Part shown: one piece after another, positions 8,510 through 61,406 of the stretch
How the letters are laid out: each line of letters opens with the position of its first letter
Position numbering within the stretch: position 1 is the stretch's first letter
Assembly: GCF_900446215.1 (NCBI RefSeq)
Contig: NZ_UAQZ01000001.1
Coordinates: 1,302,001-1,366,000, forward strand
Reading direction: 5' to 3'
DNA from: Burkholderia cenocepacia
GTDB taxonomy: Bacteria > Pseudomonadota > Gammaproteobacteria > Burkholderiales > Burkholderiaceae
Length of the DNA stretch: 64,000 bases
The notes under the pieces: model-generated
Told to the model about the DNA's origin: nothing
Database searches by the model: none
Seen by the model: only the letters and a program-made list of their open reading frames with translations
Position numbers and translations under genes: made by a program

Positions 8510-9379
8510 TCACGAGACCCGCACGCGCGCCTCGTCCGCGCGGCGCGCCGCGTCGTGCACGATGTGCAGCTCCCGCGTGCGGATCGGCAGCGCGCAATCC
8601 GCGTCGGCGAGCGTCTTGCGCACCTGGCGCGCGAGACGCCAGCGCATCGCCCAGAACTGGTCGGTATGCGTCCACACGCGCATGTTCGCGACAGCCGTGC
8701 TGTCGTCGAAGCGCATCACCATCACGTCCGGCGCGGGGTCCTGCAGCACGTCGGGATCGGCCACGGCCAGCGCACGCAGCGCAGCGAGCGCGCGATCGAT
8801 ATCGTCATGCACGGACACTTCCACTTCGAGATCGAGGCGGCGCGTCGGGTTGCGCGTGTAGTTGCGGATCGAGCTGCCCCACAGCGCGCTGTTCGGCACG
8901 TACTCGCAGATGCCGTCCGGCTTCGTCAGGCGCGTCATGAAGAGCCCGACCTCTTCGACGGTGCCCGCGACGCCCGTGCCGCCGTCGATGTAGTCGCCGA
9001 CCTTGAACGGCCGCAGCAGCAGAAGCATGATGCCGGCCGCGATGTTCTGCATCGTGCCCTGCAGCGCGAAGCCGATGGCCAGGCCGGCTGCGCCGAGCAC
9101 CGCGACGATGCTCGCGGTTTCGATGCCGAGCTGCGACAGCGCGCCGACGATCGCGACGATGCGGATGCCCCACACCGCGACGTCGCAGAGGATTGGCCGC
9201 AGCGTGTCGTCGACGCGCTCCTTGTTCGAGAGCAGCCGGTTCAGCCAGTTGCCGATGCGTTTCGACAGCCACCAGCCGGCGACGAGCAGCGCCAGGGCCG
9301 CGGACAGCTTGAGGGAGAGGGTGGACAACGCGTTCCACAGGAACGTCCAGCGTTCCGGATGAAGTTGATCGAGAAACAT
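8510..9379 (-). CDS. mscS: Small-conductance mechanosensitive channel (MscS family)
   Basis: The 289-aa protein matches E. coli MscS (286 aa). It has three membrane segments at about residues 15-40, 60-85 and 90-125. The pore helix carries the Gly/Ala-rich pattern VLGAAGLAIGFALQGTMQNIAAGIMLLL followed by RPFKVGDYI, and a soluble cage domain ends the protein. It releases solutes on hypo-osmotic shock. I start at the ATG at 9377-9379, where the family N-terminus begins; the in-frame upstream extension is non-coding in character. A copy of the 14-bp recurrent repeat lies 150 bp upstream, between this gene and the divergent M23 peptidase. Confidence 0.92.
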   Translation of the reverse strand: MFLDQLHPERWTFLWNALSTLSLKLSAALALLVAGWWLSKRIGNWLNRLLSNKERVDDTLRPILCDVAVWGIRIVAIVGALSQLGIETASIVAVLGAAGLAIGFALQGTMQNIAAGIMLLLLRPFKVGDYIDGGTGVAGTVEEVGLFMTRLTKPDGICEYVPNSALWGSSIRNYTRNPTRRLDLEVEVSVHDDIDRALAALRALAVADPDVLQDPAPDVMVMRFDDSTAVANMRVWTHTDQFWAMRWRLARQVRKTLADADCALPIRTRELHIVHDAARRADEARVRVS

Positions 9380-9528
9380 GACGGGATTCCGGTGTTGAAG
9401 ACACGATGCGCGGCGCGTGTCGCGCGCCGGTAGCCCTCGACTGTACACGGCACCGCCGGTTTCGCGCGAATGCGTGACGTGCCGGCTGCGCTGATTTAGT
9501 ACGAGTATTAAGCGGCTTTTTGAACAAA

Positions 9529-9542
9529 TAAGACGAGTCCTA
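9529..9542. promoter_or_regulatory. Recurrent 14-bp inverted repeat, copy 1
   Basis: The plus strand reads TAAGACGAGTCCTA, i.e. TAGGACTCGTCTTA on the minus strand, one variant of the repeat TAGGACCAGTCC(G/T)A. It lies between mscS and the divergent M23 peptidase gene. Confidence 0.5.
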
Positions 9543-9658
9543 TTCAGCCGTTTCGACCACGCCGATACACTCGCTGTCGAGTAGCCGGATCGCGACGATC
9601 GTTCCTCCGCGACGCCCGGTTTTTTCCCGATTTTCATTGAATAGCGAGTGACGACGTC

Positions 9659-11032
9659 ATGCGGTCAGACCTGCGTTTCCGTGTCGCACGCGAGCAAGGT
9701 CGACCCGCGTCACGCGGCGTTCACCGTTTTCCGATCGGTCGCGCGTTCCTGCGCGGCATCGTCGCGGCGGCCTGCGTGGCCGGCGCACAGGGCGCGGCAG
9801 CGCAGGCGTTTCACGACGCCGCGCCGGCCGCGCCCGCGACGGCGGAAACCATCGATCTTGGCGACGTGCCTTTCTTCAATTCCGCGCGCACGACGTGGGG
9901 CGGCCTGCGTGCATCGTCCGCCGCGCCGCTCGACGTCGCTTATGCGTCGCATGCGTGGAACGTGTCGACGGGCACCGGGCGCGACGATCCGGTGGCGCGC
10001 TTCGGCGCCTGCGTTGCATATCGCGTGCTGTGCGATACCGCGCGCGGTGCGGTCGAACGCGGCTATGCGGCGCGGTTCGATTACGGGCTGGCATCGGCGT
10101 TGCCAGCGACGGGTGCGCAGCCGGCGTTCGCGCACGGTCCGGTCGATCTGGCCTCCGCCGAGCCGTTCACGCTCGCGCAACCGGATCGCGGCACGCGCGC
10201 CGGCGCGATCGTCGGCAGCCTGCACGCGTCGCTGGCGCGCGCCGATCTGCCGGCCGGCGTCGCCGCGCAGATCGTCCGCATGCTGGCCGGGCGCGTCGAT
10301 CCGAAGCAGCGCGGCGCGCAGGGCGACACTTTCCGCGTGGCATTCGAGCCCGACCACGACGCCACGCGGCCGGGCCGCGTACGCGTGACGGCGCTCGACG
10401 TCCGCTTTCGCGGGCAGCAGGTCGCGGCCGTGTGGTTCGCCGCGCAGGCCGGCTCGCCGGGCGCCTATTACGACCTCGACGGCATGCCACTCGGCGGCGC
10501 ACGCTTCGCGATGCCGGTCGCCGCGACGCGCATCAGCTCGACATTCGGCGCGCGTGTGCATCCGGTGAGCGGCGCGCGTCACGTGCATTCGGGCGTCGAT
10601 CTCGCGGCGCCGGCGGGCCGCGCGGTGCATGCGTCGGAGCGCGGCGTCGTGACGTTCATCGGCACCGAGCCGCGCGGCTATGGCAAGTACGTGGTGATTC
10701 GCCATGACGGCGGTTACGCGTCGTACTACGCGCACCTGTCGGCGTTCGAGCCGACGTTGCGAACCGGCGCGCGCGTCATGCGCGGTCAACGCGTCGGCGC
10801 GGTCGGCAGCACGGGAACGGCGACCGGCCCCCATCTGCACTTCGAGGTGCGCCGGCATGCGCGCCTCGTCGATCCGATCGAACTTGTGCACGCCGCCCAA
10901 GCGACGAAACTGAAGGGCGCGCAGCGCGTGGCGTTCAATCGGGTGGCGCGTGATGCGCGCGTGCAGCTCGCGGCGGCCACGTGGGCGCAACCCGTGGCGA
11001 TGTCCGCGCCTTCGGCGCCGCATGCCGGCTGA
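9659..11032 (+). CDS. Exported M23-family peptidase (LytM-type)
   Basis: The 457-aa protein has a long basic N-terminus and a hydrophobic export segment (residues about 28-49, ending AAA-QA). A middle domain with a GDTFRVAFEPD strand precedes a C-terminal M23 domain. The zinc ligands are H310 and D314 (HSGVD) and H394, with catalytic H359 and H392 (HLHFEVR). These residues are all present, so it should be an active glycine- or peptidoglycan-crosslink endopeptidase rather than a NlpD/EnvC-type activator. The ribosome-binding site is weak. It is divergent from mscS, with a recurrent-repeat copy between them, which may link cell-wall remodelling to osmotic response. Confidence 0.85.
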   Translation: MRSDLRFRVAREQGRPASRGVHRFPIGRAFLRGIVAAACVAGAQGAAAQAFHDAAPAAPATAETIDLGDVPFFNSARTTWGGLRASSAAPLDVAYASHAWNVSTGTGRDDPVARFGACVAYRVLCDTARGAVERGYAARFDYGLASALPATGAQPAFAHGPVDLASAEPFTLAQPDRGTRAGAIVGSLHASLARADLPAGVAAQIVRMLAGRVDPKQRGAQGDTFRVAFEPDHDATRPGRVRVTALDVRFRGQQVAAVWFAAQAGSPGAYYDLDGMPLGGARFAMPVAATRISSTFGARVHPVSGARHVHSGVDLAAPAGRAVHASERGVVTFIGTEPRGYGKYVVIRHDGGYASYYAHLSAFEPTLRTGARVMRGQRVGAVGSTGTATGPHLHFEVRRHARLVDPIELVHAAQATKLKGAQRVAFNRVARDARVQLAAATWAQPVAMSAPSAPHAG

Positions 11033-11087: not shown

Positions 11088-11141
11088 ATGCACGGTTCCA
11101 TCGTTGTCGCATTCGAGCGCGTGTGACGGCACCGTCCCGCC

Positions 11142-11153
11142 GGACTGGTCCTA
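11142..11153 (-). promoter_or_regulatory. Recurrent inverted repeat, copy 2
   Basis: The minus strand reads TAGGACCAGTCC, a 12-mer found exactly twice more in the window (53741 and 61139). It lies 248 bp upstream of the catalase-like gene. Confidence 0.55.
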
Positions 11154-11400
11154 CATGCGGCCTGCGATTTCAGCCTGGTCTGATGGCTCCGCTGTTACCC
11201 CGTCGCTAAGATTTTCGTATGCAATGCGCGTAGCGACTGCCGCAGTCTGCCGTCGCTGCCCGCGTTCGTACCTCAATCGATTCGATCGTGGGCACCCGAC
11301 GGCGCCCGTGAGCGCAGCCATGCGCTTCATGCATCGACGGCCGCGCCAGGCAAAACACGGCGCGGCACGCACGACGACCCAACGGGATGAAAAACCATCT

Positions 11401-12474
11401 ATGTCAAAACTGGATTTCACGTCGAAACGCACGTGGGGGGCGCTGGCGGCGATTGCCGCCGTGGCCGGCGTACTGACGTCGACCCTTGCGTGGACGGCCG
11501 GCTGGATCGGTTCGCGTACGACCAGCGTATCGCTGGTGTCGGAAACCCCACAGCCGTTTCCGGCAGGCTTTCGCCGCGCGCACGGCAAGGGCGTCTGCTT
11601 CGCCGGCACCTTCCGTCCCGACCGCGCGGCGGTGCCGTTGTCGACCGCGCGTGTGTTCACGCAGGCGGATATCCCGGTCGTCGGTCGGCTCTCGATCGGC
11701 ACCGGCAGCCCGTACGCGGCGGACAGCTCCACGACGACGCTGAGCATGGCTCTGCTGCTGACGACCGATGACAAGCAGCAATGGCGCATGGCGATGAACA
11801 ACCAGCCGTACTTCGCGACACACGAACCGGAGGGCTTTCTGGCCATGCAGCAGGCGACCGCGCCCGATCCGGCCACCGGCCAACCCGACCCGGCGCGGCT
11901 CTCCGCGTTTCTGAAAGCCTACCCGGAGGCGGAGAAGTTCATGAAATGGGCGGCGCAGGAACCGGCTCCGGGCAGTTTCGCGGGCGCGACGTTCTACAGC
12001 GTCAATGCCTTCTATCTCGTGGGCGCCGACGGGCACCGGCAGCCGGTGCGCTGGATGATGCGCCCGCATGATCCGTTCATGCCGATGAGCGATGCACAGC
12101 GGCAGAAGGCCGACCACGACTTCCTGTTCGAAGGCGTGCGCGAGCGGCTCGCGCGAAAGCCGCTCTATTGGGATTACGTGCTGCAACTGGCGCAGCCGGG
12201 CGATCCGGTCGACGATGCGTCGCAGCCGTGGCCGGCCGATCGCAAGCAGCTCGTCGCCGGCACGCTGGAAATGATGCGCGTCGTCGAACAGGCCGAGGGC
12301 GCGTGCCGCGACATCAACTTCGATCCGTCGATCGTGCCCGCGGGCGTCGAGGTCTCGAACGATCCGATCCTGAACGCGCGTTCGGGCGCGTACGCGCATT
12401 CGTTCAATCGCCGCGAACGCGAAATCGGCTACGGCAAGGCGACCGAAGCGGTCGGCAAGCAGGAGGTCAAATGA
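11401..12474 (+). CDS. Membrane-anchored/exported catalase-related peroxidase
   Basis: The 357-aa protein belongs to the short catalase-like haem family (SrpA type). After an N-terminal hydrophobic segment (residues about 13-37) comes the catalytic-histidine region RRAHGKGVCFAGTF (His about 61). Further on are SMALLLTTDDKQQWRMAMNNQPYF and a C-terminal RSGAYAHSFNRR block holding the presumed haem-ligand tyrosine. It lacks the NADPH-binding and C-terminal domains of full catalases. Its stop overlaps the start of a cytochrome b561 gene (ATGA), the usual partner. This suggests electrons from the quinone pool reach a periplasmic peroxidase, which is known only by association for such pairs. The start is chosen at the ATG before the membrane segment; its ribosome-binding site is weak. 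Confidence 0.85.
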   Translation: MSKLDFTSKRTWGALAAIAAVAGVLTSTLAWTAGWIGSRTTSVSLVSETPQPFPAGFRRAHGKGVCFAGTFRPDRAAVPLSTARVFTQADIPVVGRLSIGTGSPYAADSSTTTLSMALLLTTDDKQQWRMAMNNQPYFATHEPEGFLAMQQATAPDPATGQPDPARLSAFLKAYPEAEKFMKWAAQEPAPGSFAGATFYSVNAFYLVGADGHRQPVRWMMRPHDPFMPMSDAQRQKADHDFLFEGVRERLARKPLYWDYVLQLAQPGDPVDDASQPWPADRKQLVAGTLEMMRVVEQAEGACRDINFDPSIVPAGVEVSNDPILNARSGAYAHSFNRREREIGYGKATEAVGKQEVK

Positions 12475-17023: not shown

Positions 17024-17758
17024 TCAACCCAGCGGCCAGTTCAGGATCGCGATGCCGTCGTTGTAGTCGCCATCGCCGCCATCTTCCGATCCGACCAGCC
17101 CGAAGTAGGTCTTCTTGAAGATGTCGACCTGACGCGAGCCGATCTTCGACGGCTTGCCGTTCGCCGTCACGACCACCCGCACCTTCCCCTTGCCCGAGTT
17201 CACGATCTGCGTGTTCAGGTTCGCGTCCTGCGTGCCGGCGCCCTGGAACGTCGCGGCCGGTTTCGGGTTGTCGTCGACGAACACCTCGATCGTCTGCGGT
17301 GCGGACGAATTGACCAGCGCGGTCACGCCGAATGCGATGTTCGGCGGCAGGGTGAAGATGCCGTCGCGTTCGCCGCCGCCGGTCGGCACGGGCGCGGGCT
17401 GCACGGGTTGCGGTGTCGCTTTCGAGAAGTAATTGACCACCGCGCCGACGCCGAACTTCGCCGCGGCACCGGGCAACACGCCCGGCGCGCCGGCCCACGT
17501 CACCGTGCACGCAACGACCTCGCCTGCCGCATCGGTTTTCACCTTGTTCTGCCAGCTGCCGACGTCGAAGCTGTACGGGATCGTCGCGATATCGACGAAC
17601 ACGTCGTATTGCGGCAGTTTCTCGACGAGCTGCGCGGTCATGAACTGACGCATCCGGTCGAGCACGGCCTGATCGCCGTTGGCCTGCACGGCAGTGGCGT
17701 CGTTGCCCGCGAGTTGCAGCAGCGCGTAAAGGTCGTCGTGGGTAAAGGGTTGTGACAT
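17024..17758 (-). CDS. bclB: PA-IIL-type calcium-dependent lectin BC2L-B
   Basis: The 244-aa product equals the known length of BC2L-B. The C-terminal about 115 residues form the PA-IIL/LecB lectin fold, with the calcium and sugar site SEDGGDGDYNDG and the terminal glycine that completes the neighbouring subunit's site. The specificity loop reads NSSAPQ (SSA). In related lectins SSG (PA-IIL) and SSA (CV-IIL) favour fucose, so fucose preference is inferred. The N-terminal about 130 residues (MSQPFTHDDLYALLQLAGNDATA) are a separate domain of unknown role, joined by a Pro-rich linker. No signal peptide is present. It is the last gene of the bclACB cluster, 162 bp after bclC. Confidence 0.92.
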   Translation of the reverse strand: MSQPFTHDDLYALLQLAGNDATAVQANGDQAVLDRMRQFMTAQLVEKLPQYDVFVDIATIPYSFDVGSWQNKVKTDAAGEVVACTVTWAGAPGVLPGAAAKFGVGAVVNYFSKATPQPVQPAPVPTGGGERDGIFTLPPNIAFGVTALVNSSAPQTIEVFVDDNPKPAATFQGAGTQDANLNTQIVNSGKGKVRVVVTANGKPSKIGSRQVDIFKKTYFGLVGSEDGGDGDYNDGIAILNWPLG

Positions 17759-17920
17759 GTCGTCCTCGTCTGAATGGAAGGTTCCGCATCGCATGACCGG
17801 CGAACGGATTTCACCGGACCGCGCGCGGTGTACAGCAGTGGGACTGCAAATGACTGCTCGAACGATGCGCAATGCATGGCGGGCCCCGTCGCCATTGCGA
17901 TGGTTAGTGATGGCCGTCGA

Positions 17921-18739
17921 TCAACCCAGCGGCCAGTTCAGGAACACGATGCCGTCGTTGTAATCGTCGTCGGCGCCGTCTTCCGAGCCGATGATCCCGA
18001 AGTACGACTTCTTGAAAATGTCGACCTGCCGCGAGCCGAGCCGCGACGGCCTGCCGTTCGCCATCACGATCACGCGCACGCGTCCGTTGCCGGAATCGAG
18101 CACTTTCGTGCCGAGGTTCTGGTCCTGGGCGCCGGCGCCCTTGAACGTCGCGGCCGGTTTCGGGTCGTCGTCGATGTAGATGTCGATCGTCTGGTCGTTC
18201 GCCGCGTGGGTGAGCGCGGTCACGCCGAACTTGATGTGCGGCGGGAGATTGAACGTACCGTCGCGTTCGCCGCCGCCGCCGATGTTGCCGGCCCCGGTGC
18301 CGCCGGTTTCGGCGCCCTGATTGCCGCTGCCTTGCGACGACGGCGCGGCCGTGCCCCAGATCGCGGACAGGCTCGCGTACGAATCGATGTGCATCGCGCT
18401 GCCGCGCACGCTTTTCCACTGGCCCTTCACGAACGTGACGCCGCTGCCGACGTCGATCGTCGCGACGAGCGTGAAAGGCATGCGGCCGGTGCTTTCGGGC
18501 ACTTTAGACGAATACGTGAAGCAGCCGTCCGCGACGACGCCCTGGTTCGTCGCGATCGCGAAATAGATGCCGGGGAAGTTGTTGCCGGTCGCATAAGGCG
18601 TCGGCACGTTGAGGATGACTTGCAGTTTGCCGTCGCGAATCCCGGCCTTCGCGACGTCGAGGTAGAGGCCGGGGATGTCGACGTAAGTCTCCGACGTCAC
18701 GACGGGCGCGCTGACGATCGAAGCCGAAAGGAGGGGCAT
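17921..18739 (-). CDS. bclC: Dual-specificity superlectin BC2L-C
   Basis: The 272-aa length matches BC2L-C exactly. The N-terminal about 130 residues form the TNF-like trimeric fucose-binding domain. Residues known to contact fucose are conserved when counted after Met removal: Y58, Y75, S82, T83, R85, R111 and H116. A Gly/Ser-rich linker (GSGNQGAETGGTGAG) leads to a PA-IIL-type domain with SEDGADDDYNDG and a HAAND specificity loop, expected to bind mannose or heptose. Such lectins can bridge host fucosylated glycans and bacterial heptose/mannose glycans. GGAG precedes the ATG. It lies between bclA and bclB. Confidence 0.95.
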   Translation of the reverse strand: MPLLSASIVSAPVVTSETYVDIPGLYLDVAKAGIRDGKLQVILNVPTPYATGNNFPGIYFAIATNQGVVADGCFTYSSKVPESTGRMPFTLVATIDVGSGVTFVKGQWKSVRGSAMHIDSYASLSAIWGTAAPSSQGSGNQGAETGGTGAGNIGGGGERDGTFNLPPHIKFGVTALTHAANDQTIDIYIDDDPKPAATFKGAGAQDQNLGTKVLDSGNGRVRVIVMANGRPSRLGSRQVDIFKKSYFGIIGSEDGADDDYNDGIVFLNWPLG

Positions 18740-18861
18740 GGGAGTCTCCGGAGGGAGGGCGGGGCCGGCCGGGGGCGAGGCGCCGCCGTACCGGGCGCAA
18801 ACCGCCGGCCGACGCGGACGCGGCGCGGCCGGCGGCGGTCGGTCGTCGAACGTGCGTCAGG

Positions 18862-19251
18862 TCAGCCGATCGGCCACTGGAGCACGACGATGCCGTCGTT
18901 GTAGTCGCTGTCGTGGCCGTCTTCCGACACGACGATCCCGAAGTTGACCGTGAACGGCGAGCCGTCCGACTTCTTGCCGTTGATCGGCGCGAGACGCGCG
19001 TCGGTCGCCGACGGCTTGCCGTTCACCGACACCTCGAAACGGATCTTGCCGTTGCCGGAATTCAGCGTGGCTTCGCGCGGGCCGTCGCGCGTCGTCAGCT
19101 TGTGATACGCGGCGGGTTCCTGGCTGTCGCCGATGAACAATTTGATGTGCTGTTGCTCGGCGGCATTCGCGAAGAAAATCGCGCGGAAATCGGTATTCGG
19201 CGGAATCGAGAATTCGCCGGCGCGGTTGGATGACGTTTGAGAATCAGCCAT
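18862..19251 (-). CDS. bclA: Mannose-specific lectin BC2L-A
   Basis: The 129-aa single-domain PA-IIL-type lectin carries the calcium site SEDGHDSDYNDG, the C-terminal glycine and the loop ANAAEQQH. The AAE triplet in that loop is the known mannose-specifying variant of BC2L-A. AGGAGAAAAGC sits before the ATG. It has no signal peptide although these lectins reach the surface, so export is non-classical. It is first in the minus-strand order bclA-bclC-bclB and has an AT-rich upstream region. The genes are quorum-sensing controlled in B. cenocepacia; I could not find a clear cep box here. Confidence 0.95.
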   Translation of the reverse strand: MADSQTSSNRAGEFSIPPNTDFRAIFFANAAEQQHIKLFIGDSQEPAAYHKLTTRDGPREATLNSGNGKIRFEVSVNGKPSATDARLAPINGKKSDGSPFTVNFGIVVSEDGHDSDYNDGIVVLQWPIG

Positions 19252-19845
19252 GCTTTTCTCCTGTGGATTATTAGGTAAGGCCAGGGGCCTCGTCGCGCAA
19301 ACGTTTGCCGTCTGAAACGCGACGTACTGAGCATGACGAAAAATAAATAAAAAAATATTCGTACGTGAATGGCTATTGTTCAGTAAATCGAAAATCAATG
19401 CCAATCGATTGAGTGAAATGTAATTAATGAAGTGGATTTCGATATATTCGAGAAATTATATCGATGCGTGTATCGTTTTCCTGAACGATGCGCGAGCGGG
19501 GCGGGAGAGGCGGAGGGCAATCGGACTTCGGAGCAGACGCTCGGCGTTCGCATATGGCAGCGTTTCGTTTCAACATCAGCATCTCTGTCGTGGCCGCGCC
19601 CACCGGCCACCGTCGAACGCCCACACCGAAGCCCGATTGCAAGGAGGGGTGTGCGGCGCCGGCGAAGAGGATGGACCGACTCACTCCGAACATGAATAGG
19701 GCCTCACCGGCGCCGCACCCGTGAAGCATATCGATGGGGCCAGCCGCCGCCTATCGGACTGGACTGATTCTGCGCCAACGCGCGTGTCGGGGGACGACGC
19801 GGAATGAATGCGCCCGGTTGACAGCCGTGGTCACCCTGTGATTTG
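19252..19845. other. Intergenic region between bclA and the leuA leader
   Basis: The half next to bclA (about 19320-19480) is strikingly AT-rich for this window and probably holds the bclA promoter. The other half is GC-rich and ends with a consensus -35 box for the leuA leader. I see no supported gene. Confidence 0.6.
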
Positions 19846-39379: not shown

Positions 39380-39431
39380 CGGCGCAGTGGCTTGCGGCTG
39401 GGGTGGGGCGCCGGTAAGGGAGTGAACGCGC

Positions 39432-39445
39432 TCGGACCGGTCCGA
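39432..39445. promoter_or_regulatory. Recurrent inverted repeat, variant copy 3
   Basis: TCGGACCGGTCCGA is a perfect 14-bp palindrome that keeps the GGAC-GTCC core of the repeat. It lies 135 bp upstream of the glycosidase gene. Confidence 0.4.
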
Positions 39446-39579
39446 TGGTGGCAGGCGCGGGGCTCTGCAACAATGCACGATCGGCCACGACGCGCCGTTT
39501 CCGCCGGCCGGCCGTGCGTGTGCGGGCTCGTTCCGGCGCTCGCCACATGCCGCCGGCATTTCCGACCGTTCTCTTGCCC

Positions 39580-49463: not shown

Positions 49464-50867
<1,404 letters not shown>

Positions 50868-52019: not shown

Positions 52020-53594
52020 TCAGCCGGCCAGGCGGCGGAGATCGGCGGCGACGGCGTCCATGACCGGCTGCCACTGCGCGAACGTCTTCTGCCGATACAG
52101 CAACGCACTCGGGTAGAAGGGGCTGTCGCGGCGCTCGTGCTGCCAGACCCAGTGCGGGTTCGCATCGAGCAGCACCCACGTGCGCTGGCCGAGCGCGCCG
52201 CTCAGGTGCGCGGCCGACGTGCAGACGGTGATCACGAGATCGAGCGCGCCGACGAATGCGGCGGTGTCGTCGATCGTTCGCCAATCGCGCGTGCAGTCGT
52301 TCACGACGAAGCCGGCCGAGCGGGCGGCTTCGATGTCGTGCTGCGCGCCCGGTTGCAGCGAGTAGAACGCGACGTCCTGCTGCAGGCCGCCGAACGCTTC
52401 GGCGTAACGTTCGAGGCCGACGCGGCGAAAGCGGTTGCGCTGGTGGGAGAGGCTGCCTGTCCACGCGAGGCCGACCTTCAGCCGCTTTTCGGCCGCGAGC
52501 GCCGTGCGCCACGCGTCGGTGGCGGATGCATCGGCATGGAGGTATGGCACCGTCGTGGCGAGCGCGTCGCCGTCGAGGCCGAGCATGCCCGGAATGCTCA
52601 TCAGCGGCAGCTCGACATCGAACGCGGGCAGATCCTCGATCCGCATGCTGGTGTCGAACACGTCGACATGCCGGGCAAGGCTGCGCCCGAACAGGTCGCC
52701 CATCACCGGAAACGCGTTCCACACGATCCGGCCGCCTTCGCGATGCACGCGCTCCGCGAGCAGCGGCACGTAGCGGCAGAACTGCAGCGCGTCGCCGAGG
52801 CCCTGTTCGCCCCACAGGAGCAGCGTCTTGCCCCTCAGCGATTCGCCGCGCCAGCGTGGCCCGGCAAACGCCGGCAGATTGCCGCGCAGTTCGGCCGAAC
52901 CGTCCCAGCGCGCTTCGTAGTTGGGCCAGCCCGACGCGAAATCGCCTCGCGCAAGCTGGAGCAGCGACACATTGTGGCGATACGTCGGGTTATGCGGCGC
53001 GAGTTCGACGGCGCGTTGCGCGTGCCGTTCGGCCTGGCCCCACCATTGCGCTTCCTTCATGGCCGTCGCCGCGTTGTTCACGGCCAGCGCGCTGTCGGGC
53101 GCCAGCGAGACTGCCCGGGTGGCCGCGCGCAATGCGCCGTCGAGATCGAAACGGTCGATGCGTGTGATGACCGCATTGGTCCACGCGCGCGCATCGTCGG
53201 GGGCATCGTCGAGCGCGCCTTCGATGAGGGCGAATTCCACCTCGGGATCGCCGCCCGTGAGCCGGATCGCGAGCGCGAGATTGTTCTTCAGCGACGGCCA
53301 CGCGGGCGCGAGTTCGAGCGTGTGGCGATAGGGCGCGATCGCGTCCGCGTGCCGCCCTGCCATCTGCATCGCATAGCCGCAGTTGAATGCGGCGGCGGGC
53401 GAATCCGGACGCAGGTCCCAATGGGCGGCGGCCAGTCGGGCGGCGCGATCGGCCGCACCGCGCTCGATCAGCGTTTGCGTGGCGGTGGCGACGGCGGCGT
53501 CGTCGATACCGAGCGAGGCGGCATTGGCCAGCGCGGCGAGCATCGTGTCGTCGGTGTCGGCGAATGCGGGCGTGTCGTGGGACGTGATCTGCAT
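52020..53594 (-). CDS. TPR-repeat glycosyltransferase (GT9/GT41-like C-terminus)
   Basis: The 524-aa protein has an N-terminal half of tetratricopeptide repeats (PAAAFNCGYAMQMAGRHADAIAPYRHTLELAPAWPSLKNNLALAI, then ALAVNNAATAMKEAQWWGQAERHAQRAVELAPHNPTYRHNVSLLQLARGDF). Its C-terminal GT-B-like half carries LLLWGEQGLGDALQFCRYVPLL and a donor-side signature DLVITVCTSAAHLSGALGQRTWVLL. It may glycosylate a protein or polysaccharide acceptor. GGAG sits 8 bases before the ATG at 53592-53594. It heads the minus-strand exopolysaccharide genes and faces the small membrane protein gene across a region with three recurrent-repeat copies. Confidence 0.8.
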   Translation of the reverse strand: MQITSHDTPAFADTDDTMLAALANAASLGIDDAAVATATQTLIERGAADRAARLAAAHWDLRPDSPAAAFNCGYAMQMAGRHADAIAPYRHTLELAPAWPSLKNNLALAIRLTGGDPEVEFALIEGALDDAPDDARAWTNAVITRIDRFDLDGALRAATRAVSLAPDSALAVNNAATAMKEAQWWGQAERHAQRAVELAPHNPTYRHNVSLLQLARGDFASGWPNYEARWDGSAELRGNLPAFAGPRWRGESLRGKTLLLWGEQGLGDALQFCRYVPLLAERVHREGGRIVWNAFPVMGDLFGRSLARHVDVFDTSMRIEDLPAFDVELPLMSIPGMLGLDGDALATTVPYLHADASATDAWRTALAAEKRLKVGLAWTGSLSHQRNRFRRVGLERYAEAFGGLQQDVAFYSLQPGAQHDIEAARSAGFVVNDCTRDWRTIDDTAAFVGALDLVITVCTSAAHLSGALGQRTWVLLDANPHWVWQHERRDSPFYPSALLYRQKTFAQWQPVMDAVAADLRRLAG

Positions 53595-53740
53595 GTCGAG
53601 GGCTCCGGAGGGCCGGCCGCGTATCGAGGCAGCGGCCGGTGGCAGGTTTGTCGTTGGGGCGCCGCGGCTTGTACGCATGAGCACAAGCCGCGTGGCGCCG
53701 GCTTGACGCCCACTTTATGGATCCGCATCAGGCAACTGAA

Positions 53741-53754
53741 TAGGACCAGTCCGA
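53741..53754 (+). promoter_or_regulatory. Recurrent inverted repeat, copy 4
   Basis: TAGGACCAGTCCGA sits in the divergent control region. Its first 12 bases are identical to copies 2 and 8. Confidence 0.6.
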
Positions 53755-53811
53755 ATCGATCGGGCCGCGCGAATTGTGCCCTGTGACGAACCTACCTTTC
53801 CGTCGCGTTTG

Positions 53812-53825
53812 TAGTCCCAGTCCTA
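53812..53825 (-). promoter_or_regulatory. Recurrent inverted repeat, copy 5
   Basis: The minus strand reads TAGGACTGGGACTA. It lies 71 bp from copy 4 and 37 bp from copy 6. Confidence 0.5.
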
Positions 53826-53848
53826 TTTTTGGGGTCAGCGTTCGCCAA

Positions 53849-53862
53849 TAGGACCTGTCTGA
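53849..53862 (+). promoter_or_regulatory. Recurrent inverted repeat, copy 6
   Basis: TAGGACCTGTCTGA lies 97 bp upstream of the small membrane protein ATG. Its right half also belongs to the 12-bp inverted pair with 53923-53934. Confidence 0.5.
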
Positions 53863-53934
53863 TAGAGATCGCGCCCGGCGATCTTTGTAATACGCGGTGT
53901 TCCGGCCGACATCGTTCGGCCACTATCAGACAGG
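53854..53934. repeat. 12-bp inverted repeat pair before the small membrane protein gene
   Basis: CCTGTCTGATAG (53854-53865) and CTATCAGACAGG (53923-53934) are exact reverse complements 57 bp apart. They end 11 bases before the ATG, so base-pairing in RNA would hide the ribosome-binding site GGGAG. Confidence 0.6.
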
Positions 53935-53945
53935 GAGTACTGACG

Positions 53946-54260
53946 ATGAGCGCAGCAGATTTTCTGGTGAAAGGCACCGTGATCGGAATGGTCGCGAGCG
54001 CGGCCACGGTCGGGATGGTCCATGTGGTGGTCGAGTTCGGCACGCGCTGGTCGTCGAGCGGCATGGTCGTGACGATGGCGAGCGCATTGCTGATGGCGAT
54101 GCTGCTGCTCGTGCCGCCGCTCGTTGACGCATGGCGTAACCGCAAGGACGTGGTCGATCCGTTCTACGAGCCGGCGGCGTTGAAACCGATGTTGCAGGGA
54201 CGGACGATCGGCATCGTCGTCGGCATCGTGTTCGGCGTTTCGATCGTGACGGGGTGGTGA
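53946..54260 (+). CDS. Small integral membrane protein of unknown function
   Basis: The 104-aa protein has three hydrophobic segments: about residues 8-28, 40-58 and 88-104. A charged loop DAWRNRKDVVDPFYEPAALKP separates the last two. GGGAG lies 11 bases before the ATG. It precedes and nearly overlaps the GT25 gene, and carries recurrent-repeat copies upstream. I do not recognise its family. Location suggests a role in exopolysaccharide assembly or its regulation. Confidence 0.7.
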   Translation: MSAADFLVKGTVIGMVASAATVGMVHVVVEFGTRWSSSGMVVTMASALLMAMLLLVPPLVDAWRNRKDVVDPFYEPAALKPMLQGRTIGIVVGIVFGVSIVTGW

Positions 54261-54262
54261 CG

Positions 54263-55063
54263 ATGTCGATGCCCGTTACCGACCGAACCGATGCGGACAT
54301 GGTGCACGTAAACGCGCCCGGGATCGATGCGCCGACCGTCTGCAAAACGCTTTGCGTGATCTCGCTGCGAGGCGAGCGTGGCCGCCGCGACGCGTTCCGT
54401 GCGAATAATCCGGCGCTCGCGTTCGAATTCGTCGACGCGATCGACGGCCGGGCGCTATCGGACGACGATATCGCACGAAGCGGCCTGTTCGCGCCGGCGT
54501 TGCCATACACGCGCGGCGCGATCGGCATCGCGATGACCACGCATCGCCTGTGGACCGACATCGCCGCAGGCAACGAACTGGTCACGATCGTCGAGGACGA
54601 CGCGATCTTTCGGCCCGACTTCGACGAGACGGCAATGCAATTCCTTGCCGCACACGCGAACCGTTACGACTTCGTCGCGTGGGGCTACAACTTCGATTCG
54701 ATCCTGCGCGGTGCGATCTTCAACGGCCGCACGCCGGTGACGATGCGCTTCGATGAAGCGGCGCTCGCGCAGGCCGTCGACGAATTCCGGACCGACCGCG
54801 GCCCCGTGCTCGTGATGGATCTGCTCGAGTTCTACGGGATCTGCGCGTACACGATCTCACCGGCCGGTGCGCGCTTCCTGCTCGACCACTGCTTTCCGCT
54901 GCAACCGGAGACGCTGTTTTCGCACGGGCTCGGCCGCGCGCTGCCGAACTACGGAATCGACGTCGCGATGAACAAGTTCTATGGCGCGATGCGCAGCGTC
55001 GCCGCATTTCCGCCGCTCGCCGTGACGATGAACGCGCGCGCAACATCGACGATTCAACGGTGA
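54263..55063 (+). CDS. Glycosyltransferase family 25
   Basis: The 266-aa enzyme has the GT25 features of LPS-type galactosyltransferases: CVISLRGERGRRDAF, FEFVDAIDGRALSDDDI, GAIGIAMTTHRLWTDIAAG and the metal-site-like VTIVEDDAIFRPDF. ATG at 54263 is preferred because GGGG lies 8 bases upstream. GTG codons at 54254 and 54257 would overlap the previous stop and are possible. It is co-directional with the membrane protein gene and ends in a strong terminator. Confidence 0.82.
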   Translation: MSMPVTDRTDADMVHVNAPGIDAPTVCKTLCVISLRGERGRRDAFRANNPALAFEFVDAIDGRALSDDDIARSGLFAPALPYTRGAIGIAMTTHRLWTDIAAGNELVTIVEDDAIFRPDFDETAMQFLAAHANRYDFVAWGYNFDSILRGAIFNGRTPVTMRFDEAALAQAVDEFRTDRGPVLVMDLLEFYGICAYTISPAGARFLLDHCFPLQPETLFSHGLGRALPNYGIDVAMNKFYGAMRSVAAFPPLAVTMNARATSTIQR

Positions 55064-55075
55064 CGCCGTGCGGAA

Positions 55076-55089
55076 TAGGACCAGACTGA
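55076..55089 (+). promoter_or_regulatory. Recurrent inverted repeat, copy 7
   Basis: TAGGACCAGACTGA lies 12 bases after the GT25 stop and before its terminator. This position is less obviously a promoter for the isomerase gene 508 bp downstream. Confidence 0.45.
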
Positions 55090-55186
55090 TTGTGCGGACG
55101 CCGTATGCGCTTCGACAATGCGAAAGTCGGGCGGCTGCATGGTACGCGCCCGATACCTCGTATTCGAAGCCTGGCTTCGTTGGACG

Positions 55187-55597: not shown

Positions 55598-56440
55598 ATG
55601 AAGAAGCATCACATTTCCATTGTTTCCACACTGATCGCACTCGCGTGCGCCTGCGGCGCCCCCGTCGCGCGCGCCGCAGGCACGAAAACCGACACGCCGC
55701 TGCCGCCGGGCGTCGAAGCGGTCGTCAACGACACACCCATCGCGCGCAGCGATGTGGACAGCATGATCGAAGCGACCGGACAGACCGTCACGCCCGAATT
55801 GCGCGCACAAGCCAAGCGTGAGCTGATCGCCCAGCATCTGGTCGAGCAGGCGGCGGAAAAAGCCAACTACGGCAGCCGTCCCGAAGTGAACCGCGTCGTG
55901 ATGCGTGCGCGCACGGTCGCGGCGACGGATCTCTACCTGCGTGACAACGTGCACCCGCAAGCGGTGACCGATGCGCAGGTGAAGGCGCGTTACGACGACA
56001 TCGTCGCGAATGCCGCGCAGTTCGAATATCGCGCCGACGTGATCGCCGTAGCCGATCCTGCCGAAGTGAACGCGCTGGTCGCGGAGCTGAAGCAGGGCGC
56101 TGCGTTCGACGCGGTGGCGAAGAAGTACAACACGACGCCGAACGGCGGCGTTGCGCAGTGGGTCGAATTGCGTACGCCGGTGGCCGAGGGGAAGACGGGC
56201 GGTTTGCCGTTACCGCTCGCGCAGGCGATTACGTCGCTGCAGCCGGGTGCCGTCGCAGGCCCGATCCGGGTCGGTAACGCGTTCGCGATCGTGAAACTCG
56301 ACGAGAAGCGCGCGACGGTCGTGCCGACCTTCGAAGCGGCGAAGAACGTGCTGCGTCAGCAGCTGGAAGGGCAGGCGCAGCAGCGTGCGATGACGGCGCT
56401 GGTGGACAAGCTGGCCGGGCAGGCGACGATTCAGCAGTAA
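55598..56440 (+). CDS. Exported parvulin-type peptidyl-prolyl isomerase (EpsD-like)
   Basis: The 280-aa protein has a signal peptide (cleavage near ARA-AG, residue 27). A SurA/EpsD-like N-terminal helical chaperone region (VNDTPIARSDVDSMIEATGQTVTPELRAQAKRELIAQHLVEQAAEKANYG) precedes a parvulin domain (VIAVADPAEVNALVAELKQGAAFDAVAKKYNT through VGNAFAIVKLDEKR). Such proteins accompany exopolysaccharide loci, where they are thought to help fold exported components. GAAGGAATCGTC precedes the ATG, and a strong terminator follows. It is flanked by two copies of a 21-bp repeat. Confidence 0.85.
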   Translation: MKKHHISIVSTLIALACACGAPVARAAGTKTDTPLPPGVEAVVNDTPIARSDVDSMIEATGQTVTPELRAQAKRELIAQHLVEQAAEKANYGSRPEVNRVVMRARTVAATDLYLRDNVHPQAVTDAQVKARYDDIVANAAQFEYRADVIAVADPAEVNALVAELKQGAAFDAVAKKYNTTPNGGVAQWVELRTPVAEGKTGGLPLPLAQAITSLQPGAVAGPIRVGNAFAIVKLDEKRATVVPTFEAAKNVLRQQLEGQAQQRAMTALVDKLAGQATIQQ

Positions 56441-56600: not shown

Positions 56601-56801
56601 AAAACAACTCCGACAGATTCTTACGCAGACGAAGATCGGTATGTTCCGGTGCCGCATACCGCGGCCGACATGGCGCGCCGGCTTGCCGATCCGGCCATCA
56701 AGGCGGCATACGATGAGATGGCGGATGCGTTCGCTGCGCTCCGCGCACGGCTTGCACAGAATCAGCCTGGTCCGATTGGTTGTGACGTTCGTTCACGTTA
56801 G
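56601..56801 (+). pseudogene. Degenerate HigA/XRE-type antitoxin fragment
   Basis: A reading frame ending at 56801 encodes HTAADMARRLADPAIKAAYD followed by EMADAFAALRARL. This resembles the N-terminal arm that precedes the helix-turn-helix in HigA-like antitoxins (DPE-AAYDAL-EF-L). The frame stops where the DNA-binding domain should begin. A good Shine-Dalgarno (GAAGGAG, 56593-56599) lies in front, but no ATG, GTG or TTG follows it at proper spacing. It is best read as a remnant of a toxin-antitoxin pair. The match is by eye and modest. Confidence 0.35.
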
Positions 56802-56960: not shown

Positions 56961-57281
56961 TCAGACCGAAACCGTGATACCCGCCAAGCGCGAGGATCCC
57001 GCTGGCCGCACCACGATTTCCACCTGCTGCCCAAACGACACCAGCGCGCGCATCAGCAGATCCAGCGAAACGTTCCGGAGCCGCTCGCGCTGCTCGGGCG
57101 TGACCACGGGTCGAGCCATGTCAGCGAGCGCCGCCGCTTCCTCGTCGCTCAGGCCCTGCGACGCGATCAATGCGTTGAGCTTCAGCACGAGCGCGGATTT
57201 GGCCGACAGTTCTCCCGCGTCGTCGAAACCGGAATCGGTGGGCGTGCAATCGGTGTGTTGATACGAGGCGTCGCGATTCAT
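56961..57281 (-). CDS. XRE-family helix-turn-helix protein, putative antitoxin
   Basis: The 106-aa protein has a small XRE-type helix-turn-helix (KSALVLKLNALIASQGLSDEEAAALADMARPVVTPEQRERLRNVSLDLLMRALVSFGQQVEIVV). This matches the compact class whose C-terminal strand reads Gx-VEI-V, common beside HigB-type toxins. Here it overlaps the stop of a SymE-like gene by 4 bp instead. Autorepression of the unit and neutralisation of the SymE-like protein are inferred from that arrangement. Confidence 0.82.
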   Translation of the reverse strand: MNRDASYQHTDCTPTDSGFDDAGELSAKSALVLKLNALIASQGLSDEEAAALADMARPVVTPEQRERLRNVSLDLLMRALVSFGQQVEIVVRPAGSSRLAGITVSV

Positions 57282-57899: not shown

Positions 57900-60800
57900 T
57901 CATCGCTTCATCACCGATGTGTTGGAAAACGTGTCGGCCGCTTGCTTCGCGTCACTTGCCGCACGCCGCGCGAGAATCTCGCTCGCACTTTGCCGATAGC
58001 GTTCGAACTCACGCGCGAACGCCGCCGCGTCCCCGGCCAGCGCTAGTGCTTCGATCGACGCGCACAGCCCCGAAATGTCCCGCTCCCCAATCATCGCGAA
58101 CGCACCGCGCATGCTGTGAATCTCCGAGCGTGCAACCTTCAGATCGCCGTCCTGGAGCGCGCGCGCGATGGCGGCGTTCGAGCGTCGCGTCGCGTCGACG
58201 AGCACCGTGTGCAGGTCTTTCGGCAGCGGGCCGGCCGCGCGCGACGGCACGGGCGGATGCACCGGCCGGCGCCACGTCCCCGCATGTTTCGTGATCGCCT
58301 GTTCGAGCGACTTCAACGACGTCGGCTTCGTGACGATCTCGTCGATGCCGGCTTCCCATGCCAGCTTCAACTCGTCGGGTTCCGCATGCGCGGTCACCGC
58401 CAGAATCGGCTGCACGCGTCCGCGCTCGCGCAGCACGCGCGCGAACGCGTAGCCGTCGAGGCCCGGCATGTTCAGGTCGGTCAACACCACCGCGTAGTCG
58501 TGGCGATCCACGAGATCGAGCGCTTCCGCGACGTTCGACGCGACATCGGCCTGATAGCCTAGTACGTCGAGCTGATCGTGGATGAGCGAACGGTTGACCG
58601 GGTTGTCGTCGACGAACAGCACGCGTGCATTCGGTGCGTCGCCGTCGGCACGCGAGCGGAGCGCGCCCGGCTGGCGATCGAGCGGCAGCGGCAGCGTGAC
58701 GACGAAGGTCGAGCCGACGCCCGGCACGCTGTCCGCCTCGATGCGTCCGCCCATCGATTCCGCGAGCTTGTAGCTCAGCGCCAGGCCGATGCCCGTCCCG
58801 CCGAAGCGGCGCGCGATCGACTCGTCGGCCTGCGCGAACGGCTCGAATACGTGCGCGAGCTGATCGGCCGTCATGCCGATGCCGGAATCGCTGACGCGGA
58901 TCGTCACGGGCGTCGCGCCGCCGCCCGATGCCGACACCGACAACGCCACCGCGCCGCGGTCGGTGAACTTGATCGCGTTGCTGACCAGGTTGACGGCGAT
59001 CTGCCGCACGCGCATCGGATCGCCGAGATACGTATGCGTGACCGCCGGATCGACGTCGATGCGCAGCGCGATACCCCTCGCGCCGGCCACTGGCTCGAAC
59101 AGGTCCGCGACGTCGCGCATCAGTTCATCGATCCGGAAACCGGTCGCTTCGAGCGTCATCCGGTCGGCCTCGATCTTCGTCATGTCGAGCACGTTGTTCA
59201 GCATGTCCAGCAGCATCCGGGCAGCCGACGTGACCGCATGCAGGCGCGGCTTCTGCCGGCTCGGGTCGGGCGCCTTGTCGAGCAGTTCGAGATTGCCGAG
59301 CATCGCGTTCAACGGCGTGCGGATTTCATGGCTGATCGTCGCGAGGAACGTCGACTTAGCGCGGTTCGCGCTGTCGAGCGCGCGCTGGGCGTCGGCGCGC
59401 GTCGTGATGTCGGAGAAGCTGCACAGCAGCGCGTCCTTGCCCTTGTAGCGCACGCGGACGAAGTTGACGAGCAGGTCGCGCGTGCGCCCATCGTCGAGCG
59501 TCACCGGCAGCTCGACGTCGAGCTGGGCCGGCGACGCGTCCGCGTGCTCGCGGTAGCGTGCCAGCAGCCGCTCGTGCAGCGGCGGGGCACCGGCCTCGCG
59601 GTCGTACAGCTCGAGCATCCGGTTGCGCAGCAGTACCTGATGCGTGTCGGGCGACACGAGACCGATGCCGAACGGCGCGGTCGCGACGATCGTGCGGCTC
59701 ATCCGCTCGCTTTCGAACACGCGGCGCGAGCGACGGAACAGCGGCGCGAACACCCGCAGATCGAACGCGATCACGAGCGTCCACAGCACGATCAGGATGG
59801 TTGCGATCGTGCCGAATTCGCGCAGCATCGTTGCCCAGATCGCATAGGCGATCGTGTGCCACGAATACGCATAGACGATCGCGTAGCCGGTGTCCGAGAT
59901 CCGGTCGGTGATCGTGAACACGCCGTGCCGGTAGCTTTCGTCGAAATTCACGAGGCCGCGGCGCCACGTGCCTTCGGCGAGCGCGTGCTTCATCAGCGCG
60001 GCGCCGTCCTCCGAGTTGTCGGTGCGATCGACGTCGAGCACCACGCGGCCGTGTTGGTCGACCAGCATCGCAACGGCATCTTCGGGCGCGTGCCTGAGCC
60101 GGTCGGCGATCACGTCGACGTCGAAATCGCTGACGAAAGTCATGAAATGCTTCTGCCCGTCGAAGGCGGGTTCGACGAGACGGAACACCGTCTTGCCGGT
60201 CAATGGGTCGATCGCCGGTGCTTGCCACGCGATCCGGCGCGACAGGCGCCAGTAGCGCGCGATCGCCGGATTGGACCAGTCGGCCACGTCGAACGCGAGG
60301 TGCTGGATCAGCGCATGCGTGTCGGGCACGCCGATGTGCGCAAGCAGGTCCGGATACGGCATCGACGGCGGCGGCGTGATCGCGATCACGTTGCGGTCGG
60401 GGCTGTACGCGTAGCCGCGCACCGCGCGCCCGGTCTGGCGCTCGGCGGCCGCGACGGAAATCGTCTGGCGCTCCATCAATTGGACGTAGCGATCGGTTTC
60501 GTCGTTGGCCAGCGCGTCGGGCGACGCGGCCAGGAAGATCTCGCTCACGCCGCGCATCGGCGCGAGCAGCACGTGGCCGTCCTTGCGTAGCGCGTCGGAG
60601 GCTTCGCGCGCATGCGGCGGATGGCCGTTCCACAGCAACTCCGCATTGATCACTGCGCGGCGCATCGACGCCTGCTTCGCGTCCATTTCGAGTTGCACGA
60701 GCGCCTTGTGCGTCAAGAACAGGTCGCGGCGCTCGGTGATGTAGTCGCGCACCGAGCCGACGAGCAGGATGCCGGCCGCGATCAGGATCACGAGCGACAG

Positions 60801-60932
60801 CACGACCGCGCCGCCGTACAACGTGAAGCGCTGATACCGGTTCAGCAGGCTCAGGTCGCGCGCGTCGTCGTCGATCGACGCGAACGGCTCGCTGGCGTCC
60901 GTATGGGACGCGAAGAGATGGCGGATGGGCAT
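57900..60932 (-). CDS. RcsC/BvgS-type hybrid histidine kinase with receiver and HPt domains
   Basis: The 1,010-aa membrane kinase has helices near 37-60 and 365-385 around a periplasmic sensor of about 300 residues. A PAS-like region (RTIVATAPFGIGLVSPDTHQVLLRN) is followed by HisKA with the phosphorylated histidine in ATISHEIRTPLNAML (about 535), then an ATPase domain with NLVSNAIKFTD and FGGTGIGLALS. A receiver (VLFVDDNPVNRSLI, TDLNMPGLDG) and a C-terminal HPt with EIHSMRGAFAMIG complete it. Its output must be a separate response regulator, and none is in the window. It is divergent from the adhesin gene, with two recurrent-repeat copies between them. Confidence 0.92.
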   Translation of the reverse strand: MPIRHLFASHTDASEPFASIDDDARDLSLLNRYQRFTLYGGAVVLSLVILIAAGILLVGSVRDYITERRDLFLTHKALVQLEMDAKQASMRRAVINAELLWNGHPPHAREASDALRKDGHVLLAPMRGVSEIFLAASPDALANDETDRYVQLMERQTISVAAAERQTGRAVRGYAYSPDRNVIAITPPPSMPYPDLLAHIGVPDTHALIQHLAFDVADWSNPAIARYWRLSRRIAWQAPAIDPLTGKTVFRLVEPAFDGQKHFMTFVSDFDVDVIADRLRHAPEDAVAMLVDQHGRVVLDVDRTDNSEDGAALMKHALAEGTWRRGLVNFDESYRHGVFTITDRISDTGYAIVYAYSWHTIAYAIWATMLREFGTIATILIVLWTLVIAFDLRVFAPLFRRSRRVFESERMSRTIVATAPFGIGLVSPDTHQVLLRNRMLELYDREAGAPPLHERLLARYREHADASPAQLDVELPVTLDDGRTRDLLVNFVRVRYKGKDALLCSFSDITTRADAQRALDSANRAKSTFLATISHEIRTPLNAMLGNLELLDKAPDPSRQKPRLHAVTSAARMLLDMLNNVLDMTKIEADRMTLEATGFRIDELMRDVADLFEPVAGARGIALRIDVDPAVTHTYLGDPMRVRQIAVNLVSNAIKFTDRGAVALSVSASGGGATPVTIRVSDSGIGMTADQLAHVFEPFAQADESIARRFGGTGIGLALSYKLAESMGGRIEADSVPGVGSTFVVTLPLPLDRQPGALRSRADGDAPNARVLFVDDNPVNRSLIHDQLDVLGYQADVASNVAEALDLVDRHDYAVVLTDLNMPGLDGYAFARVLRERGRVQPILAVTAHAEPDELKLAWEAGIDEIVTKPTSLKSLEQAITKHAGTWRRPVHPPVPSRAAGPLPKDLHTVLVDATRRSNAAIARALQDGDLKVARSEIHSMRGAFAMIGERDISGLCASIEALALAGDAAAFAREFERYRQSASEILARRAASDAKQAADTFSNTSVMKR

Positions 60933-61138
60933 GAGACGAAGGCCGGTAAATCAAAGCGAAAATCGGGAGACGCGCACGGCGCGGGCGGCAACAGCCGCGG
61001 CGGGGCCGGGACGCGGACGATATCCGCGAGCCATGCTGATGGCAGCGCAATGCGTTGCCGGCTCGGGGAACGGGAAAATTATCGGGATAGCGGACGGGCC
61101 TGTATGTAGGGCAGTCCGAAACACTCGCGCGCGATGGA

Positions 61139-61152
61139 TAGGACCAGTCCTA
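61139..61152 (+). promoter_or_regulatory. Recurrent inverted repeat, copy 8 (perfect)
   Basis: TAGGACCAGTCCTA has perfect arms; with flanking bases ATAGGAC/GTCCTAT they extend to 7 bp each around CA. It lies 207 bp upstream of the hybrid kinase start and 255 bp upstream of the adhesin start. Confidence 0.7.
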
Positions 61153-61276
61153 TTCATGCAATCGGTTGCGCGCTGCGTATATAAGGCCTGACGCGCGGAT
61201 GTGTCAAACGGAATCGGTCAGGAGAACGGTGCGTCGGCGCGTGGTTTGCACGACCGATTGTCAAGCATCGTCATGT

Positions 61277-61290
61277 TAGGACTGGGCCTA
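61277..61290 (+). promoter_or_regulatory. Recurrent inverted repeat, copy 9
   Basis: TAGGACTGGGCCTA lies 117 bp before the adhesin ATG and 138 bp from copy 8. Confidence 0.5.
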
Positions 61291-61406
61291 CGAAATAAGT
61301 CGTCGCACGTCCAGCCGTCTGATTATCGAAATGACAGGCGATCAATACATTGGCATCTGTGGACGAGGAGTGTCCTCCTCCCCTTTTTTCTACAGAGGCA
61401 ATCAAC

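Follow-up and report, generated by a model that had tools for sequence, protein, structure and literature searches.

The region and its repeated box

We refer to the whole stretch of 64,000 nucleotides analysed here as the window, and features beyond its end are numbered by continuing the same coordinates. In gene order and domains, the region corresponds to the B. cenocepacia trimeric-autotransporter cluster BCAM0218-0228, to which exopolysaccharide (EPS), lectin and wall genes are added; its features are collected in Table 1. We take the three-gene lectin row to be the Bcl lectin genes. The name BCAM0214 for the glycosyltransferase was assigned from gene order and from the available text of PMC3244429. 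In the stretch 56760-57619, one of the two small genes has an HTH_37 domain, as in antitoxins, and it is possible that the box at 56760 drives a small RNA or antisense transcript. Beyond the window, a short reading frame at 81377-82207 (L011:17377-18207) carries trimeric-autotransporter stalk repeats, has low third-position GC and shows no anchor match; it is probably a gene fragment.

Table 1. Boxes, promoter elements and genes of the window and of the region that follows it (window coordinates; box scores are given in bits of the position weight matrix, PWM).
Feature	Position	Strand	Remarks
MscS-family channel	8510..9381	-	start set by relatives
Box, TAGTAC type	9495..9512	.	PWM 15.8; 32 bp upstream of next box
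Box, MscS/M23 promoter	9527..9544	.	PWM 25.1
-10-like TACACT	9566..9571	+	21 bp after box 9527
M23 peptidase, ShyA/MepM-like	9659..11032	+
Box, catalase promoter	11138..11155	.
Box, catalase promoter	11168..11185	.	-10-like TAAGAT 21 bp on
Catalase-family protein	11401..12474	+
Three genes in a row	17024..19404	-	PA-IIL (fucose-binding lectin) domain in the outer two, which were scanned
Box	19752..19769	.	-10-like TATGCT points to lectin genes
Weaker box near EPS genes	39430..39447	.	PWM 14.0
EPS sugar-phosphate transferase	49464..50867	-
TPR protein	52020..53594	-	first gene in front of EPS genes
-10-like TAAAGT	53712..53717	-	21 bp after box 53739, toward TPR gene
Box, TPR promoter	53739..53756	.	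PWM 24.5
Box, middle of triplet	53810..53827	.	PWM 20.4
Box	53847..53864	.	-10-like TGTAAT at 53886-53891
Small protein, 104 aa	53946..54260	+	no Pfam match
Glycosyltransferase family 25 (GT25)	54254..55063	+	position of BCAM0214
Box	55074..55091	.	-10-like GACAAT at offset 22, toward PPIase gene
PpiC-type peptidyl-prolyl isomerase (PPIase)	55598..56440	+
Box	56760..56777	.	-10-like TAGATT into antisense strand of two small genes
RcsC-like hybrid kinase, BCAM0218-like	57900..60932	-	HisKA, HATPase, receiver, Hpt
Box between hybrid kinase and adhesin genes	61137..61154	.
Second box, kinase/adhesin intergenic region	61275..61292	.	PWM 16.1
Trimeric autotransporter adhesin, BCAM0219-like	61407..70268	+	ESPR, YadA head, stalk, anchor; window ends at 64000
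Two RcsB-like response regulators (BCAM0221-/BCAM0222-type)	71384-72103, 72236-72928		beyond window, between adhesin genes
Second RcsC-like hybrid kinase	83868-86903		beyond window
BCAM0228-like winged-helix protein	87047-88006		beyond window
Box pair	88038, 88086		between divergent BCAM0228-like and FixJ-partner kinase genes
FixJ-like regulator	89549-90298		beyond window

The original prediction held that a 14-bp inverted repeat occurs nine times here, always in non-coding DNA. All nine sites lie where it placed them (the second occupies 11140-11153 on the minus strand), their non-coding position is upheld by a curated gene table, and the 12-mer TAGGACCAGTCC does occur three times in the window, as claimed. 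The repeat itself is real and exceeds chance, but its unit is longer: when the nine sites are aligned and iterated, they yield an 18-bp palindrome with a wider consensus, AATMRGMCNNGKCYKATT, which we call the box. The list of nine, although valid throughout, overlooked good sites at 9495, 11168, 19752 and 56760.

The string TAGGACNNGTCC has four matches in the window, corresponding to three places since one is counted on both strands, where 0.03 is expected; of its five matches in the 8.04-Mb genome, four fall inside the window. When up to three mismatches are allowed, the 14-mer is matched 20 times in the window, compared with an expectation of 2.47. With at most one mismatch, the consensus occurs at ten places in the entire 8.04-Mb genome, all of them in this neighbourhood: nine within the 88 kb of C7:1311527-1399274, and the tenth at C7:1503152. 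At two mismatches there are 49 places genome-wide, versus 12 for the reversed pattern. We use patterns with mismatches because a profile of the box is too short for whole-genome E-values; a sequence-only profile model reported just four palindromic places genome-wide, all in the array.

At the end of its iteration, the PWM finds 27 sites above 12 bits in the 105-kb stretch that begins at the window's first base. The best score in the 100 kb before the window is 11.2, and the 99 kb that follow the 105-kb stretch hold a single site above 10 bits, at 201152 (22.2 bits). The array continues past the end of the window, at 77862-97257 and at 201152, the latter being C7:1503152. Boxes frequently come in pairs or triplets, at steps of 19, 30-32, 37, 48 and 71 bp, and the copies have different flanks. 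Across the stretch 8500-98700, where the coding fraction is 0.857 according to the curated table, every one of the 17 sites above 16 bits is intergenic, as are 25 of the 27 above 12 bits. One site, at 49547 (13.3 bits), is within coding sequence and was dropped as a chance match; that at 17758 also falls within a reading frame. Since the consensus was learned on this genome, the independent tests are those in other genomes and that of the distance to the -10 element.

A stretch of about 100 kb at 97460-198271 (C7:1399460-1500271) has mostly lower third-position GC, as seen in gene calls from its two ends. On one side it is bordered by the ion-channel gene and on the other by genes which, in the relative G048, are immediate neighbours of that gene. 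The stretch is probably a genomic island inserted at the edge of the regulon. The neighbours of the tenth place, at 201152, stand right next to the array in some relatives, G048 for one, and so this place was probably split off by the insertion.

Promoter spacing and conservation

We scanned 25 sites of this genome in both orientations (50 rows) for -10-like hexamers, over 60 offsets and with a hexamer score of at least 4 under a generic sigma-70 matrix based on general knowledge. At an offset of exactly 21 bp after the 18-mer, a -10-like hexamer starts in 12 of the 50 rows, which represent 12 different sites; the mean is 0.85 per offset, the next best offset reaches 4, and none of 300 shuffles reaches 12. 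Within the window, this spacing is found at the boxes for the M23 gene (9527), the catalase (11168), the lectins (19752, minus), the TPR gene (53739, minus) and the small gene with GT25 (53847). Beyond the window, it is found for two adhesin genes (boxes 77881 and 81115 (minus)), the BCAM0228-like regulator (88038, minus), MarC (95403) and the ion channel (97257, minus), while 56760 and 201152 show it without a clear target gene. The remaining 13 of the 25 sites break this rule, and the two boxes that precede the adhesin gene at 61407 are among them; at 55074 the hexamer is one base off. LeuA was considered as the target of 19752, which lies upstream of it in 10/10 genomes, but we rejected it, as the -10-like hexamer points to the lectins.

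A spacing of 21 bp places the centre of a bound dimer near -42, overlapping the -35 region, as in class II activators. The original prediction allowed for either an activator or a repressor; the spacing points to an activator operator. In a count over many genomes, offset 21 is best with 64 of 224 rows and offset 53 has 33, but because orthologous promoters repeat in it, we did not use this count as a test.

Our set for the genus comprises 61 genomes, this one included. Fourteen of them have a close orthologue (at least 78%) of the BCAM0222-type regulator, in each case beside a second one at 52-57%. Counting places with at most one mismatch, the 13 other genomes with the pair have 8-18 (median 13), compared with 0-12 (median 3) in the 47 genomes that lack it. 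In ten genomes with the pair, 103 of 122 places are no more than 100 kb away from it, a tally that leaves out G002, G025 and G028, whose places are spread over several contigs. High counts among pair-less genomes are those of G027 (12), G012 (10), G020 (9) and G040 (9), and in G027 and G020 part of the count consists of copies of one repeat. Identical copies of AATCAGACAACTCTTATT occur at steps of about 1.4-6.6 kb at G027:C2:227841-237452 and G020:C3:1143850-1153518.

For 12 genomes we asked which genes have a site scoring more than 16 bits in the 400 bp preceding their matched start; the chance of such a site in a random 400-bp stretch is 0-8%, depending on the region, and several of the gene pairs share one intergenic region. 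Sites are present for M23 (11/11), MscS (12/12), the catalase (4/4), the first lectin gene (10/11), LeuA (10/10), TPR (7/7), the first hybrid kinase (10/10), the BCAM0228-like gene (10/10), its divergent neighbour kinase (8/8) and MarC (8/10). Intermediate counts are obtained for d200 (7/11), epsUPT (4/9), PPI (3/10), GT25 (2/8), Ion (2/11), RR222 (1/10) and o57 (1/7); a distance of more than 400 bp between box and matched start accounts in part for the low counts of PPI and GT25, and a matched start that overlaps the box for that of Ion. No such site appears in any of the 12 genomes for eps1 to eps5, OmpA220, OMP90, LMWP, SBF and HK227, nor for the other two lectin genes, AutoT, HTH37, d201 and RR221, among others. 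The adhesin genes are absent from this tabulation because their ends align poorly; boxes before them are visible in the relatives' regions.

The link between box and gene is kept even after inversion or relocation of the gene (G019, G034, G045, G025). All 15 orthologous M23 promoters found keep a site 115-127 bp upstream, at 12.4 to 25.8 bits; 13 of these promoters belong to genomes that lack the pair, and in six of the 15 a second box scores above 11 bits at the same 32-bp distance. The weak site at 39432, a deviant member of the original nine, is found unchanged, in the corresponding position, in G048; near the EPS genes of G034, G038 and G025 there are close variants of it. The original prediction named an even genomic spread or a lack of conservation as outcomes that would count against it; we find the boxes to be clustered, intergenic and conserved.

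Outside the genus, boxes are few. Among the first 16 RcsB loci, six have at least one site above 15 bits, but two of these six come from Burkholderia, and at a third the reversed control does as well; the other 64 loci give three sites above 17 bits, against ten in the reversed controls. We therefore do not claim the box beyond Burkholderia. Seven loci (L130-L134, L137, L143) have another palindrome, AATCAGTCACGACTGATT, 1.2-1.4 kb ahead of the matched start of a different M23 peptidase; it occurs once in this genome (G000:C1:21564). Away from the array, genomes across the genus (G010, G012, G015, G020, G022, G026, G027, G039, G056, G058 and others) share a single site, AATCGAACTCGTCTGATT, perhaps one fixed core target.

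Candidate regulators of the box

Both members of the regulator pair have a receiver and a LuxR-type DNA-binding domain. Their best relative in the PDB is RcsB, at 147 and 157 bits, with EvgA next at 66, and RcsB is also their best NCBIfam model (168.1 and 177.1 bits, below the cut-off of 235). Judged by these homologies, they are RcsB-type relatives rather than RcsB itself. In the RcsB-DNA complex, as described in the available text of PMC5829831, bases are touched only by K180 and S184, with the half-site TTAGGAA. At the equivalent positions of the pair the lysine is kept and the serine replaced by threonine in all rows shown, a set that gives identical ends once and does not include the pairs of G002 and G041. 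For both hybrid kinases the best model is RcsC, at 340 and 410 bits (cut-off 920), with TorS next at 327 and 369, a narrow margin for the first kinase. The first kinase has an Hpt domain; the domain scan found none in the second.

In favour of an RcsB-type reader, three other RcsB-like genes, in G002, G017:C4 and G053, have a box about 90-290 bp upstream. Against the pair as the reader, a box upstream of its own genes is mostly absent (0/10 and 1/10 genomes). Some boxes also persist in G015 and G023, which lack the pair, and there they must have a different RcsB-like reader. The box is thus followed more closely by the RcsB-type class of proteins than by any single gene. In one of two clinical variants compared in the available text of PMC3244429, BCAM0207 (EPS kinase), BCAM0214 (glycosyltransferase), BCAM0219 and BCAM0223 rise 1.5- to 3.8-fold, among many other changes, which agrees with co-regulation without proving it.

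We conclude that the repeat is, with a probability of roughly 0.8, the operator of RcsB-type response regulators that switch on an adhesion and surface regulon. This reading draws on the box, its clustering, intergenic position and conservation, the -10 spacing at 12 of 25 sites, and the homology of regulators and kinases; from these we infer which regulator binds, its phosphorylation, and activation rather than repression. Besides the points on the pair given above, the 13 sites that lack the 21-bp spacing and the NCBIfam scores of regulators and first kinase speak against it. The evidence favours the originally proposed dimer-binding operator of a surface-structure regulon, with binding itself predicted. 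The accompanying guess of an RcsB-type reader has gained weight from the RcsB homologues beside the array, their conserved base-contact lysine, and the fixed -10 distance at about half of the sites.

The mechanism we envisage is as follows. The two RcsC-like hybrid kinases (57900-60932 and 83868-86903) probably feed phosphate to the two RcsB-like regulators, which would bind TMRGAC-N2-GTCYKA as dimers in which helix 9 of either subunit recognizes one half-site, T(A/C)(A/G)GAC. A dimer centred near -42 would overlap the -35 region and recruit sigma-70 polymerase. The adhesins, the TPR gene before the EPS genes, GT25, the lectins, the M23 wall peptidase, the catalase and the PPIase would then be switched on jointly, and the BCAM0218- and BCAM0228-type signalling genes along with these surface genes.

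Relatives carry a third RcsB paralogue, RcsB3, which is about 50% identical and, in the nine relatives measured, lies 47-73 kb from the pair. The box might accordingly be chiefly the operator of RcsB3, with the pair as a later copy that uses the same or modified sites. The 13 pair-less genomes that keep the M23 site do have an RcsB-like match of 46-50%, and in G015 and G023 this match is 88-89% identical to the RcsB3 of G048. However, no RcsB3 gene was found in this genome, where the array is nevertheless full; moreover, the base-reading position of RcsB3 holds Q rather than K, and its neighbourhood favours TAGTAC-type half-sites. We consider this account improbable, though it fares best among the alternatives.

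The contact positions of RcsB3 are Q and S in the eight genomes shown. Its neighbourhood contains 13 boxes of the T type versus 6 of the G type in 177 kb, and the arrays 10 versus 162 in 640 kb (Fisher P 5e-10), the real support of this count being weaker because orthologues are repeated and hybrids are counted on both sides. The base that changes between the two half-site types is, by our counting, the G touched by K180 in the E. coli complex. A switch in specificity can tentatively be proposed, by which K-type RcsB paralogues would read T(A/C)(A/G)GAC and the Q-type RcsB3 would read T(A/C)GTAC. Against it stand three boxes near RcsB3 that are hybrids, with one half-site of each type, and the mixed box at the Q-type gene of G002. 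If the switch were true, the array and the RcsB3 neighbourhood would be two linked regulons split by one residue and one base, and some promoters, such as that of MscS/M23, would carry both box types 32 bp apart. As a separate observation, RcsB-like genes of a Ralstonia, a Paraburkholderia and an Achromobacter (L145, L146, L152) have Q at the K180 position, and TAGTAC/TCGTAC-type palindromes upstream or nearby.

It is less probable still that the box is read by the BCAM0228-like winged-helix protein or by the FixJ-like regulator. Both do lie in the array, and a pair of boxes separates the BCAM0228-like gene from the gene of the FixJ-partner kinase. Yet in the regions that were fetched, the array persists in G017 and G019, where neither the FixJ-like regulator nor its kinase has a match, and the M23 and lectin boxes persist in G015 and G023, where the BCAM0228-like protein has none; the FixJ-like protein, besides, is a relative of FixJ, not of RcsB. 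Palindromic repeats can be mobile elements, and the many copies, with pairs at single promoters, could suggest such a repeat or a repressor or silencer site, but the fixed 21-bp distance, the attachment to specific promoters and the differing flanks make this very unlikely, even if a repressor at -42 is formally conceivable. Lux boxes have CTG outside and CAG inside; from this general knowledge we also discarded a Lux-box (CepR2-type) reading, because the box shows the reverse order.

Comparison with known systems

In the literature searched, which left most subscription journals outside its scope, we found no description of this box or regulon. In the Burkholderia trimeric-autotransporter cluster, the link from the two-component proteins to the genes they control has been missing, and an operator of RcsB-type regulators would be a candidate for it. 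The predicted regulon would switch on adhesins, lectins, EPS-linked and wall-remodelling genes together, and the box offers an operator candidate that is testable promoter by promoter. In addition, RcsB paralogues with matching boxes form a natural series in which to study how a LuxR-type regulator changes its DNA preference.

The form of the RcsAB box (TAAGA/TAGGA, a 4-bp gap and an inverted TCYTA) is matched by TAAGACGAGTCCTA at 9529 and by TAGGACCAGTCCTA at 61139. We take the RcsAB consensus to be TAAGAATATTCCTA, a string found in one paper. The enterobacterial Rcs system, in the available text of PMC5829831, shares with the system here the RcsB family, the base-reading lysine and polysaccharide targets, and the two boxes share inverted TARGA-type half-sites with a 4-bp gap. 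It differs in that our kinases score below the RcsC cut-off, that there are two regulators, and that the centre of the box is GAC-N2-GTC. A search of 21 genomes, among which 13 belong to this genus with the present one included, gave no IgaA, while the E. coli control was found; thus, this is not a canonical Rcs system.

Within Burkholderia, the description of the cluster BCAM0218-BCAM0228 in PMC3404963 has the same kinds of genes in the same order as here, and control of the cluster by its two-component proteins was proposed there earlier. Its available text gives no operator, and the array here reaches far beyond the cluster. CblSTR, the cable-pilus system mentioned in the available text of PMC3842833, can be likened by its description: it is a Burkholderia phosphorelay with an Hpt kinase that controls a surface appendage.

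A close parallel in kind is that of P. aeruginosa PA14, where control of adhesins by an RcsB-type regulator and RcsC-like hybrids is already known, as set out in the available text of PMC3842833. In the RcsB/RcsC/PvrS system of cupD, as here, an RcsB-like regulator and hybrid kinases are found beside adhesin genes. According to the same text, one of the sensor kinases has a working Hpt domain, the genes lie on an acquired island, and RcsB works as an activator from a site resembling the RcsAB box, with putative sites at other regulator genes. The PA14 system has one main adhesin operon with scattered targets, whereas about 25 boxes extend over 90 kb here; and, unlike PA14 as described there, the present system has two RcsB paralogues, trimeric autotransporters and a GAC half-site.
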